In this document: positions 1 through 6,131 of the stretch, in pieces | How the letters are laid out: each line of letters begins with the position of its first letter | Numbering within the stretch: position 1 is the stretch's first letter | Origin: Galactobacter valiniphilus | GTDB taxonomy: Bacteria; Actinomycetota; Actinomycetes; Actinomycetales; Micrococcaceae | Assembly (NCBI RefSeq): GCF_003575975.1 | Contig: NZ_QQXK01000004.1 | Location: 62,001 to 126,000 of the forward strand | Length of the DNA: 64,000 bases | Direction of reading: 5' to 3' | Notes under the pieces: model-generated | Told to the model about the DNA's origin: nothing | The model's input: only the letters and a program-made list of their open reading frames with translations | The model's database searches: none | Translations under genes and position numbers: made by a program

Positions 1-647
1 CCGTCGGCCACCACGTAGGCACGGCGCGCTCGGCGCGCGATGAGCGCGTTCACTACGGCCTCAGACTCCTCGTCCACCGAGAAGACGCCCTCCTCGGAGA
101 TGCCGTTGACGCCGATGAAGGAGAGGTCGCACGTGAGCTGGCCCAGCGTCGCCTCGGCGAAGGGTCCCACGAGCTCGTAGGAGTGCGGGTGCATGACGCC
201 GCCCGAGACGACCACCTTGATGTGCGGGCGCACGGCCAGCGTGGAGGCGATGTTGACCGAGTTGGTGACCACCGTGAGGGCGGCGCGGCCCGTGTCATCG
301 CGCAGATCGGCACGCATGCCGAGCATCTGCGCCAGCATGTCGGTGGTGCTGCCGCCGGAGAGGCCCACCACCATGCCGCGGCTGACCAACGAACTGGCCA
401 GGGAGGCAATGGCCCGCTTGGCGCCGTCGTCGTCCAGGCGATAGCGCTCCGGGAGGTCGTAGGCGAGGGAGCCGCGCGTGGCGCCGCCGTGCGTGCGGAC
501 CAGGAGCTGGCGCTCGGCCAGCCCGTCCAGATCGCGGCGGACCGTGGCGGGCGAGACGGAGAGCTCCTCGACAAGGCGCTCCACGTCCACGGAGCCCTCG
601 CGGGCGAGCGTGGCCAGGATGATGTTGCTGCGTTCCGAGCGATTCAC
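1..647 (-). CDS. DeoR-family transcriptional regulator (partial)
   Basis: A DNA-binding repressor of sugar catabolism genes, cut by the left window edge after 215 codons. Translation gives an N-terminal winged helix-turn-helix (about residues 10-60, with VSPATVRRDL as recognition helix and RTHGGA after it), then the sugar-phosphate sensor domain (GLSGGSTT, VVTNSVNIA, VVVSGGV, FIGVNGISEEG). These are hallmark DeoR/GlpR motifs. The GTG start at 647 has AAGGAGG 8-10 bases upstream, the best ribosome site in reach. It lies downstream of, and co-oriented with, a sugar ABC transporter and sugar-phosphate genes, so it probably controls them in response to a phosphorylated sugar. The C-terminal end is not visible. 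Confidence 0.9.
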   Translation of the reverse strand, partial: MNRSERSNIILATLAREGSVDVERLVEELSVSPATVRRDLDGLAERQLLVRTHGGATRGSLAYDLPERYRLDDDGAKRAIASLASSLVSRGMVVGLSGGSTTDMLAQMLGMRADLRDDTGRAALTVVTNSVNIASTLAVRPHIKVVVSGGVMHPHSYELVGPFAEATLGQLTCDLSFIGVNGISEEGVFSVDEESEAVVNALIARRARRAYVVAD

Positions 648-766
648 ACCGCCCCTCCTTCGCTTGATCCGTGGTCCTCGGGCTGCCGGCGACGGTGGCC
701 GGGTACGCGCGTGGGCCCGCGCAAGCACGAGCCCACACACGAACCACCCACTGTAGCTTTCCCCGA

Positions 767-2767: not shown

Positions 2768-4078
2768 TCAGGAGGCTGCGTCGGCCTTGGCCTGGATCTG
2801 CTTGAGCACGTCGGCCGAGGGCGACTTCTCGATCTGACCCGTGAGCGACTTCAGCGCGCCGTCCGTGGCGGCCCAGGCCGGGTTGGTGGTCGGGTAGAAC
2901 TTGGCGCTCGGGAGCAGCTCGAGGAACGGCTTCAGCGTCTCGTCCGAGGACATCGCGGTGGCGCCGGTCTTGGTGGTCGGCAGGAAGGACTCGCCCTTGA
3001 TGAAGGGGACGTAGACCTCATCGGAGAAGAAGTAATCCATGAACTTCTTCACGCCGTCCTTCTTGGCCTGATCCTTGGAGAAGGAGGCCAGGCGGTCGGC
3101 AACACCCAGGGTCACGGCCGAGCCGTCCTTGGTGGCGGGCTGGGCGATCCCGTACTCGAGGCTCGGGTTCTCCTTCTTGATCTGCGCGACCGTCGGCGGG
3201 AGGGCGTAGACGAAGCCCATCTTGCCCTGCACGAAGCCGGACATCATGGGGGTGCGCTGCGTGGAGCCCGGGTTGGACTGCGTCACGCCGGCGTCGATGA
3301 ACTTCTTCATCTCGTCGAACGCCTCGAGGTTCTGCGGGGTGTCGACGGTGATCTCGGACTCGTTGCCGAAGCCGCCACCGGCGCCGAGCGACCAGATCAT
3401 GGCCTCGGCCTGGGCCTCCTCGGAGCCGAGCGGCATGCCGTAGCCCGGGTTGCCGGTCTTCTCCTTGACGGCCTTGGCGGCGGTCAGCAGCTCGTCCCAG
3501 GTCTTGGGGACCTCAACGCCGGCCTCCTTGAGGAGGGCCTTGTTGTAGAAGAGCGCGCGGGCCGAGGCGAGCAGCGGGAGGCCGTACTGCGTGCCGCCCA
3601 CCTTCTCGTTGGTGTTGAAGGAGTCCTGGAAGTTGGACAGGGTCTCCGGGGAGGTGATCTCCTCGGCCTTGGCCAGCAGATCGTCGGCCACGAAGCCGGA
3701 GATGGCGCCGCCGTTGTAGATGTCGGGGGCCTGGTTGCCCTGGATCTTCGTCTTCAGGACGGTCTCCAGGTTGTCCCAGGACTCGACCTGCAGCGTGATC
3801 TTGACGTTGGGGTTCTTGGCCTGGAAGTCGGCGACGACCTTCTCCCAACGAGCCTTGGTGCCCACGCCGTCCACGCTGGTCTTGGTGTCGGAGTAGGTGG
3901 GGACCAGCATGGTCAGGCTGACGGCCTCGCCGCCGGCGGCGCCGGAGGACGAGGAGCCACCCGGGGCGGCCGAGGAGCTCCCGCTCCCGCCACTGCCGGA
4001 GAAACTGCAGGAGGACAGGGCCATGGCGTCGATGGCGCCGATGGCCAGGGCGCTGGTGCGCCAGGTCTTCTTCATCAT
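2768..4078 (-). CDS. Sugar-binding lipoprotein of CUT1 ABC transporter
   Basis: Extracellular solute-binding protein family 1, about 436 aa, that captures the sugar and presents it to the permeases. Lipoprotein signal: MMKKTW, hydrophobic core, lipobox ALSSC with the modified Cys at residue 24, then a Ser/Gly-rich tether. An Asp inside the hydrophobic core (GAIDAM) is unusual. The mature part shows typical family 1 features (WDNLETVLKTKI, PDIYNGG, WDELLTAAKAVKEKTG, PMMSGFVQGKMGF). I use ATG 4078 behind GGGGAGAGAG; a TTG at 4084 is less likely. The upstream gap (4079-4312) holds several TGTGATGA/GTGATCATAC-like words that could be regulator sites, but I cannot define an operator. Confidence 0.92.
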   Translation of the reverse strand: MMKKTWRTSALAIGAIDAMALSSCSFSGSGGSGSSSAAPGGSSSSGAAGGEAVSLTMLVPTYSDTKTSVDGVGTKARWEKVVADFQAKNPNVKITLQVESWDNLETVLKTKIQGNQAPDIYNGGAISGFVADDLLAKAEEITSPETLSNFQDSFNTNEKVGGTQYGLPLLASARALFYNKALLKEAGVEVPKTWDELLTAAKAVKEKTGNPGYGMPLGSEEAQAEAMIWSLGAGGGFGNESEITVDTPQNLEAFDEMKKFIDAGVTQSNPGSTQRTPMMSGFVQGKMGFVYALPPTVAQIKKENPSLEYGIAQPATKDGSAVTLGVADRLASFSKDQAKKDGVKKFMDYFFSDEVYVPFIKGESFLPTTKTGATAMSSDETLKPFLELLPSAKFYPTTNPAWAATDGALKSLTGQIEKSPSADVLKQIQAKADAAS

Positions 4079-4312
4079 GGTCAACTCTCTCCCCGAAAGA
4101 TCATTCGATCCGACGGTGTGCGCGGAAGTGATGTTTTAGCGGCGCGATCGCTCACACAATTGCAAGTATGATCACTCATTGTGGGTGTCCTGCGTCACAT
4201 CAAGAGGTCTGAGGCAACTGTTCGCAGTCATCACACACTTGTTTCACGGCCGTGATCTGCGAGGGACGCGCGAGACGCCCGGGCCGGATCGGGAAGGCCA
4301 CCGCGGCGGCGC

Positions 4313-5227
4313 TCAGGCCCCCGTGATGACCGCCGCGAGCCGCGCCACCTCGGCGCGCATGGCCTCGCGTGCGGGACCCAGGTACTTGCGCGAATCCACG
4401 AGGTCCGGGTTCGCCGCGAGCACCTCGCGCACGGCCCGGGTGAAGACCTTGTTCAGGTGAGTGGAGACATTGATCTTGCGCATGCCCGCCGCCACGCCGC
4501 GCTGCAGCAGCTCGTCCGAGACCCCCGAGGAACCGTGCAGCACGAGCGGGACGGGCACGGTGGCGTGCAAGCGCTCGATCAGCTCCAGGTCCAGCGCCGC
4601 GGTCCGCTGGGTCATGGCATGCGAGGAGCCAACGGCCACCGCGAGGGCGTCGACGCCGGTGTCGGCGACAAAACGCGCGGCGTCGTCCGGATCGGTGCGC
4701 ACTCCGGGCGCGTGCGCACCGTCCTTGCCACCCACCTCGCCCAGCTCGCCGGCACCCGGCACGTCGACGCGAGTGTCCCCCACGAAGGCCGTGGCGGCGA
4801 TGCCCGTGCCGATGACGACGGCCAGGGTGCAGGCGGCGCCGTCGAGCCCCGCCCCCTCGGCCAGCTCGGCCTCGGCCGCCGCGCCGACGTCGTGCCCGAA
4901 CGCCAGAGGGACCCCCAGGCGGGCGGACAGCGCGTCCGGCACCGCGGCGTCGCGCAGGCCCAGATTCGCCGAGAAGACCGCGCGGCGGCGCGCGGTGTCG
5001 ACGATCCCGGGAAGGAGGAGGGCGGCGACACCCGGCCGCTCGCCGTCGAGCACGTCCTCCGCGATACCCGCGAGCTGGCCCACGAGGGCCTCGCCGCTCG
5101 TGTCGGCGTGCGCCAGCACGCCGCGGCGGGGCACGGGGCCGAGCTCATGCCCGGCGCCGCGCGCCACGGCCGCCTTGATGTCGGTTCCCCCCACGTCCAG
5201 CAGGAGCAGGGGGGCGCGCTCAGGCAT
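4313..5227 (-). CDS. Chimera: N-terminal half ROK sugar kinase joined to C-terminal half class II aldolase
   Basis: One uninterrupted 304-aa frame whose halves belong to different families. Residues 1 to about 160 match a ROK kinase: LLLLDVGGTDIKAA phosphate loop, FGHDVGAAAEAE around the catalytic Asp, and VVIGTGIAAT. The Cys-rich zinc motif and the C-terminal third are absent. Residues about 162-304 match a GatY/KbaY-type class II aldolase: GGKDGAHAPG, AVAVGSSHAM and LVLHGSSGVS with two zinc-binding His (203, 231), and KINVSTHLNK. The aldolase N-terminal half, with its catalytic Asp and first zinc His, is missing. The join lies near 4720-4760 inside GELGEVGGKDG, where both families carry a similar GELG/AELG word. 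The start overlaps the SIS stop by 8 bases. Full kinase or aldolase activity is unlikely. It could be a deletion relic or a repurposed protein. Confidence 0.85.
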   Translation of the reverse strand: MPERAPLLLLDVGGTDIKAAVARGAGHELGPVPRRGVLAHADTSGEALVGQLAGIAEDVLDGERPGVAALLLPGIVDTARRRAVFSANLGLRDAAVPDALSARLGVPLAFGHDVGAAAEAELAEGAGLDGAACTLAVVIGTGIAATAFVGDTRVDVPGAGELGEVGGKDGAHAPGVRTDPDDAARFVADTGVDALAVAVGSSHAMTQRTAALDLELIERLHATVPVPLVLHGSSGVSDELLQRGVAAGMRKINVSTHLNKVFTRAVREVLAANPDLVDSRKYLGPAREAMRAEVARLAAVITGA

Positions 5228-6131
5228 CGTCGCCGTCGAGGGTGATCGAGCGCGTCAGGTGGCGCGGCTCGTCCGGGTTGAGGCCGCGGGCCAGGGCGCG
5301 GTCGAGGGTCACGCGGTGCACGCGGGCCAGCTCGGCGAGCGGGTGCACGTCGGCGTGGTGAACATAGGCGCCGCCCGTGACCTCGACCTCGCTGCGCAGC
5401 GCGGAGGGGCCGTCGCCGATGAGCCAGGTGACGCGGTTCGGGCCCGCGATGGAGATGGAGCCATGGCGGTACTCCTTGGCCGGGTAGGACTCCGTCCAGC
5501 CCTGGACGGCCTCGCGCATCTTGAGCGCGGCCTCGTTGGCCAGGCCGTAGGTCCAGCCGCGGCCGAGGAAGGTGAACTGCTCGGCGTCGACCAGCTCCTG
5601 CTCCGTGGGGGTGTCCACGGCGACGCGGGCGTCCTCCACGGCGCTACCGAGGTCGATGCCGGAATCGGTGAGGAGGTACGCGAGGGCCGTCGTGGCGAAG
5701 CGGGTCTGCACCACGGAGCGCTCGTCGGCGTACGGCGGCGCGACGATGCGATCGGCGAGCGTGACGATCGGGGTGTCGGGGTCGCCGATGATCGCGACGC
5801 TCGGGACCACGCCCTTGAGCTCGGTGAGCACCTCAAGGACCTCGGTGGTGGTGCCGGAGCGAGTGATGGCCACGAGCAGATCGTAGTTCTGCGCGCGCAC
5901 GGCGAGGTCGGATTCGGACGCGGAGAAGGCGTCGGTGAGGCCCTGGCCGGAGAGCTCGCGGGCCTTGGCCCAAGCCTGCGCCATGAACCACGAGGTGCCG
6001 CAGCCGATGACGGCGACGCGCTGGCCGGCGGCGGCCACGGGCTCGGTGGCGCGGCGCTCGGTGGCCTCGACGATGGCGCGGGTCCACACCTCGGGCTGCG
6101 AGCGCAGCTCCCCTTCCATGTAGGTGCTCAC
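5220..6131 (-). CDS. SIS-domain sugar-phosphate isomerase/deaminase (AgaS-like)
   Basis: Two SIS domains in 303 aa, the fold of sugar-phosphate isomerases and of the GlmS isomerase domain. Seen: VIGCGTSWFMAQA and AITRSGTTTEVLE (phosphosugar-binding loops of the first domain, about residues 35-110), and FLGRGWTYGLANEAALKMRE plus YPAKEYRHG (second domain). Such proteins in aga/gat-type operons convert or deaminate amino-sugar phosphates. GTG 6131 is chosen because AAAGGG sits 7 bases before it; ATG 6119 is an alternative. It is the first gene of the cluster and overlaps the chimera by 8 bases, so translation is coupled. The exact substrate is unknown. Confidence 0.85.
   Translation of the reverse strand: MSTYMEGELRSQPEVWTRAIVEATERRATEPVAAAGQRVAVIGCGTSWFMAQAWAKARELSGQGLTDAFSASESDLAVRAQNYDLLVAITRSGTTTEVLEVLTELKGVVPSVAIIGDPDTPIVTLADRIVAPPYADERSVVQTRFATTALAYLLTDSGIDLGSAVEDARVAVDTPTEQELVDAEQFTFLGRGWTYGLANEAALKMREAVQGWTESYPAKEYRHGSISIAGPNRVTWLIGDGPSALRSEVEVTGGAYVHHADVHPLAELARVHRVTLDRALARGLNPDEPRHLTRSITLDGDDA

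Follow-up and report, generated by a model that had tools for sequence, protein, structure and literature searches.

The fused gene and its surroundings

The window, i.e. the whole stretch of 64,000 nucleotides of Galactobacter valiniphilus DNA that was analysed, carries on its minus strand an open reading frame (ORF) of 304 amino acids at positions 4313–5227, running from an ATG at 5227 to a TGA ending at 4313 with no internal stop. It consists of the N-terminal part of a ROK kinase (residues 1–163) and the C-terminal part of a class II aldolase (residues 161–304), three common residues being included in both counts. Pfam assigned residues 10–163 to ROK (PF00480; profile positions 4–153 of 294, E 6e-10), a partial rather than full-length domain, and residues 160–300 to F_bP_aldolase (PF01116; profile positions 132–271 of 277, E 4.4e-39). 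With NCBIfam, the tagatose/fructose-bisphosphate aldolase models started mostly at residues 152–176 and the ROK models ended by residue 166; no ROK or aldolase model reached its curated cut-off on this ORF. Residues 1–163 were 87% identical to the nearest congener's ROK kinase (E 6e-86), and residues 164–302 were 93% identical to its aldolase. Profile and congener matches therefore agree with an earlier sequence-only reading, which had described a chimera of a ROK front half and a class II aldolase back half, and the ORF is confirmed as a real ROK/aldolase fusion. The counter-evidence named in that reading, a full-length aldolase match through the N-terminal half, was not found: residues 1–163 matched the nearest congener's aldolase over 20 residues only (E 0.023), and a diverged full-length aldolase was excluded.

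The fused ORF overlaps by 8 bases an upstream SIS-domain gene of 303 amino acids (5220–6131, minus strand), which is similar to GlmD, GlmS and AgaS at scores below the curated cut-offs. The intact ROK gene of the nearest congener overlaps its SIS gene likewise, and the fused ORF is coupled to SIS because its start was inherited from the ROK gene. Also on the minus strand and with intact frames are an ABC transporter sugar-binding protein (2768–4084) and two ABC permeases (1696–2658 and 835–1692). They are followed by a DeoR-family regulator (1–740, minus strand), GlpR/AgaR-like at scores below the curated cut-offs, whose longest frame begins at 740 and extends beyond the window; next to it, outside the window, lie the genes for a NagA-like protein and NagB. 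Among the eight neighbour proteins scanned, NagB alone scored above a curated cut-off, and SIS did so for no model.

Judged by family resemblance, on which the substrate assignment is based, the ancestral operon of SIS, ROK, PfkB and GatY/Fba-like aldolase genes would resemble those for galactosamine/GalNAc catabolism via tagatose phosphates. One paper (PMC3668189) describes E. coli AgaS as a proposed deaminase/isomerase in galactosamine/GalNAc catabolism.

Gene order in relatives and the junction

Three congeners were compared (a Galactobacter sp. MAG, an 'Arthrobacter sp.' MAG and G. caseinivorans JZ R-183). All three carry separate SIS, ROK, PfkB and aldolase genes at the corresponding locus, in the order ROK-PfkB-aldolase, and in each the fused halves match two genes approximately 2 kb apart, separated by a complete PfkB-family gene. 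The sequence-only reading had placed the ROK and aldolase genes side by side before the deletion; this ancestral adjacency was rejected, since PfkB intervenes in all three congeners, and one whole kinase gene was therefore also lost. ROK is adjacent to the aldolase in 2 of 79 more distant loci (L066 and L078), the 79 being the best-scoring of a longer list.

DNA comparison with the nearest congener over 5 kb was collinear except for one large gap, at the junction, and the window is shorter by 2,020 bp (the distance between two common words). Nucleotides 1–489 of the fused gene align to this congener's ROK gene and nucleotides 478–905 to its aldolase gene, both at 86%. The lost stretch comprises the C-terminal half of ROK, the PfkB gene, a spacer and the N-terminal half of the aldolase. 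The marks of a deletion-fusion scar in a catabolic operon are all seen here: relatives in which the genes are intact and separate, and one gap only, with a short common sequence at its ends. The alignment with relatives that had been recommended thus recovered the separate ROK and aldolase genes and mapped the gap ends, and the proposal that a deletion through a common short word fused two genes of an operon of amino-sugar type is supported by both congener gene order and breakpoints.

The junction word GAGCTGGGC (Glu-Leu-Gly; 4739–4747, minus strand) is common to both parent genes, 8 or all 9 of its bases agreeing in the congeners. The join lies inside it, at ELG (residues 161–163), and so within GELGEVGGKDG, where it had been predicted. 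In the nearest congener, the ROK gene has GAGCTGGGC and the aldolase gene GAGCTCGGC, 2,020 bp apart and with matching reading phase, with the common codons GAG CTG/C GGC (Glu-Leu-Gly); in G. caseinivorans the word is exact in both genes, and in the two nearer congeners it matches at 8/9. Among relatives, it encodes Glu-Leu-Gly in aldolases and Glu-(Leu/Ile/Val)-Gly in ROK proteins. Across 69 loci with ROK at most 4 kb upstream of the aldolase, taken from the best-scoring 79 of a longer list, the ROK and aldolase words agreed at 9 bases in 2, 8 in 18, 7 in 26, 6 in 20 and 5 in 3. The two genes of Arthrobacter sp. cf158 and of G. caseinivorans (L061 and L018) share the word at 9/9 bases, so that an in-frame deletion of this kind could also happen in these genomes.

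The ROK/aldolase pair of the nearest congener is GC-rich, and exact 9-base matches occur at 34 pairs of positions. When breakpoints were placed at random in these two genes, a run of 9 with at most one mismatch was found in 0.42% of cases, an exact run of 5 in 1.5% and an exact run of 9 in 0.03%; a random join keeps the frame one time in three. On these counts the argument from the rarity of a common word at the junction is weakened; a deletion between short repeats fits. The word has one and the same reading phase in the two genes, which kept the frame open.

The contig of the window is 162 kb long, in a draft genome of 3.4 Mb. The PfkB protein had no match at E ≤ 1e-3 in this genome, and the lost ROK and aldolase halves had no other copy in it beyond distant paralogues. 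The lost ROK half gave three distant ROK matches (31–37% identity over most of its length) and a fourth at residues 98–176 (42%), and the only other aldolase is a class II enzyme of 340 amino acids (36% identity), presumably the glycolytic one. An assembly or library artefact, with intact genes in the true genome, might be suspected in a draft of 99 contigs, yet the join sits inside this contig, the common word is at most 9 bases and the missing pieces were found on no other contig; given their absence from the assembly and the shortness of the word, we consider a misassembly very unlikely. A further contig of the genome (C9; locus L143, 109–4203) carries two ABC permeases, a family-3 glycosidase and a ROK kinase together, and this kinase might supply the amino-sugar phosphorylation lost at the fused gene.

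To look for the same architecture elsewhere, as the sequence-only reading had advised, 295 family genomes (including 4 of the genus) were searched; 222 had some match, and a match spanning both halves was obtained in the genome of the window only. Several family-search matches of lower identity, in which the aldolase ran far into the ROK half, were read as overextended alignments and not as fusions. Among 396 sampled genomes of the order, the genome itself was the sole match at E ≤ 1e-64, a threshold that the three congeners would pass, so that they evidently lie outside this sample. In the 79 loci from named genomes, which are the best-scoring part of a longer list, the aldolase N-terminal half directly precedes its C-terminal half in every case, ROK lies within 4 kb upstream of the aldolase in 69 (with PfkB between in 63 of these) and SIS lies upstream in 64. 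No second fusion was thus seen in the family genomes, the sampled order genomes or these best-scoring loci. The ancestor of the window had the SIS-ROK-PfkB-aldolase cluster of Actinomycetes, which differs from the present locus in that the fusion is found in the window alone and the two aldolase halves stay together in all 79. In the literature, we found no paper on gene fusion by microhomology or on a ROK/tagatose-bisphosphate aldolase fusion protein.

Active sites and structure models

The ROK-derived part without the common word (4748–5227, minus strand) retains the DxGxT motif, which we take to be the phosphate motif (DVGGTD from residue 11), GHDVG from residue 111, whose Asp is presumably the catalytic base, and GTG from residue 140. 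In the congener ROK protein, the His of GELGH is residue 164 and the CxCGxxGC motif starts at 173; the fused ORF has Glu at 164, and both this His and CxCGxxGC, which we regard as the ROK zinc motif, are missing. On the aldolase side, D83 and H84 are invariant in 17/17 aligned aldolases and were assumed to be the catalytic Asp and the first zinc His; they lie upstream of the junction and so are absent from the fused ORF. The aldolase-derived part without the common word (4313–4738, minus strand) keeps the His residues of GSSH and LHGSSG (203 and 231), presumably the second and third zinc His. The three losses reported in the sequence-only reading, namely the ROK zinc motif, the catalytic Asp and the first zinc His, were all found.

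The junction corresponds to residues 135–137 of the intact aldolase, in strand 5 (131–138) of the control model. Of the eight barrel strands in that model, 6–8 and the end of 5 remain and 1–4 are lost, leaving the barrel incomplete. AlphaFold2 modelled the fusion with a mean pLDDT of 74.0 and a pTM of 0.56, as against 90.2 and 0.89 for the intact congener aldolase, which is a rough control given the different depth and kind of the alignments (35 rows for the fusion, 17 for the control). The ROK N-terminal lobe was modelled well (10 of the first 11 ten-residue blocks at pLDDT 81–97); the junction and parts of the aldolase section were modelled poorly, residues 155–176 falling below 50. In a fold search with the fusion model, the 50 matches listed were ROK proteins and class II aldolases, apart from one with an unclear title. 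Fused residues 159–296 match chain residues 132–272 of the tagatose-1,6-bisphosphate aldolase AgaY (PDB 1gvf; E 9.9e-26), whereas before chain residue 132 ROK sequence replaces the aldolase in the fusion; in AgaY, this replaced part is where the catalytic Asp and the first zinc His would be expected. The fusion product is most likely inactive both as a kinase and as an aldolase.

Substitution pattern, age and pathway loss

Changes on the window lineage and on that of its intact sister were polarised by the third congener and counted by parsimony, with small numbers throughout. The fused halves showed 15:35 amino-acid to synonymous changes on the window lineage and 13:25 in the sister; without constraint, 2.27 amino-acid changes would be expected for each synonymous one. 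Changes at conserved sites were 0/10 in the ROK half and 1/4 in the aldolase half, compared with 0/7 and 2/5 in the intact sister. In this conserved-site test, NagA gave no usable columns (15 loci matched, threshold 20). Both halves thus change at the pace of their intact counterparts, which means that the deletion is recent or that the product is constrained: a deletion older than approximately 1/8 of the lineage would leave more amino-acid changes unless the product were constrained (P 0.07 at one tenth of the lineage, 0.03 at 15%). We favour recency, of which the absence of relaxation and the normal codon use are what is expected.

The sequence-only reading had taken the clean frame, the coupling to SIS and the codon use as hints of selection, and had left the event as recent or selected. 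These features lend selection no support, the frame resulting from the same-phase word and the coupling from the ROK start; recency fits the substitution counts, and selection fits them too with no evidence of its own. An open frame, a start in the operon and unrelaxed substitutions are, as a counterpoint to a dead scar, also the pattern of a functional protein. A selected fusion, such as a regulator or sugar-binding protein derived from the ROK N-terminal lobe, would agree with the inherited start coupled to SIS, with unrelaxed substitutions and no conserved-site decay in both halves, and with the well-modelled lobe. We nevertheless hold it to be highly improbable: it is present in a single genome of those searched, its junction and parts of its aldolase section model poorly, both active sites are incomplete, and recency explains the same substitution counts. 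Highly improbable as well is a new protein, kept by selection, whose ROK N-terminal lobe would still bind the sugar or partners and which, with its aldolase tail, would serve the remaining transporter and regulator as a sensor or scaffold.

Eleven gene pieces were compared in this way, the xanthine-permease gene being excluded since the third congener's locus stops part-way through it, and no p value survived correction for 11 tests. Uncorrected, the window lineage had an excess of amino-acid changes in SIS (17:17 vs 6:25 in the sister, p 0.018) and NagA (8:29 vs 2:41, p 0.038), and a trend only in the sugar-binding protein (p 0.077); DeoR was opposite (0:20 vs 9:23, p 0.009), and the other seven pieces did not differ. 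Pooling of seven pathway genes gave 50:144 vs 36:164 (p 0.068), again a trend only. The DeoR-family regulator (window 1–740; L015 3839–4741) has no amino-acid change unique to the window lineage, and 9 in the sister.

SIS codon 225 (window 5457–5459, minus strand) encodes Ser, in an RHGP motif where all 68 matching loci, congeners included, have Pro; HGP is, we assume, an active-site motif of GlmS-type isomerases. Two further changes, L132P and I297T, also fall at conserved positions (Leu in 59/68 and Ile in 57/68 matching loci). The SIS enzyme may, on these substitutions, also be impaired, and P225S hints at a wider decay of what looks like a galactosamine-type branch. If real, the SIS excess suggests a relaxation longer than that of the fused halves, which one recent loss does not explain. 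Such damage to SIS could have come first, with the loss of kinase and aldolase ending a toxic build-up of sugar phosphates; an adaptive deletion of this kind would agree with the SIS excess, the P225S change and the kept frames of transporter and regulator, but it is unlikely, the SIS p value failing correction for the 11 pieces.

The best explanation, to which we give a probability of roughly 85%, is that a recent deletion of approximately 2 kb left this scar in a SIS-ROK-PfkB-aldolase operon, with an inactive product and, most likely, loss of the sugar branch. The deletion would have joined the Glu-Leu-Gly word of the ROK gene to that of the aldolase gene, leaving the front half of the ROK kinase and the back half of the aldolase, with nothing of the PfkB-family kinase gene between them. 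Translation of the fusion product probably begins at the old ROK start. As the fusion would be unable to act as a kinase or an aldolase, the branch turning a galactosamine-type amino sugar into triose phosphates was most likely lost in the window lineage. With NagA and NagB kept and other ROK proteins in the genome, use of N-acetylglucosamine may persist.

In E. coli K-12, a known parallel, a deletion within the aga/gam cluster reportedly also fuses two genes. According to two papers (PMC3668189, PMC9628945), that deletion covers 2.3 kb, with genes lost and truncated, and abolished the use of GalNAc and galactosamine. The deletion in the window hit what looks like a galactosamine-type catabolic cluster too; according to the same papers (PMC3668189, PMC9628945), the PTS transport genes agaWEF were deleted in E. 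coli K-12, whereas the window loses parts of the ROK kinase and aldolase together with the PfkB kinase, with an in-frame fusion.

The locus shows cleanly that an open, translatable chimera can result when a small deletion joins unrelated enzyme genes, here because similar codons in the same phase specify Glu-Leu-Gly in both. Domain-based annotation would name the fusion a ROK protein or an aldolase and so wrongly credit the organism with a pathway that it seems to have lost. The biological meaning is ordinary pathway loss.
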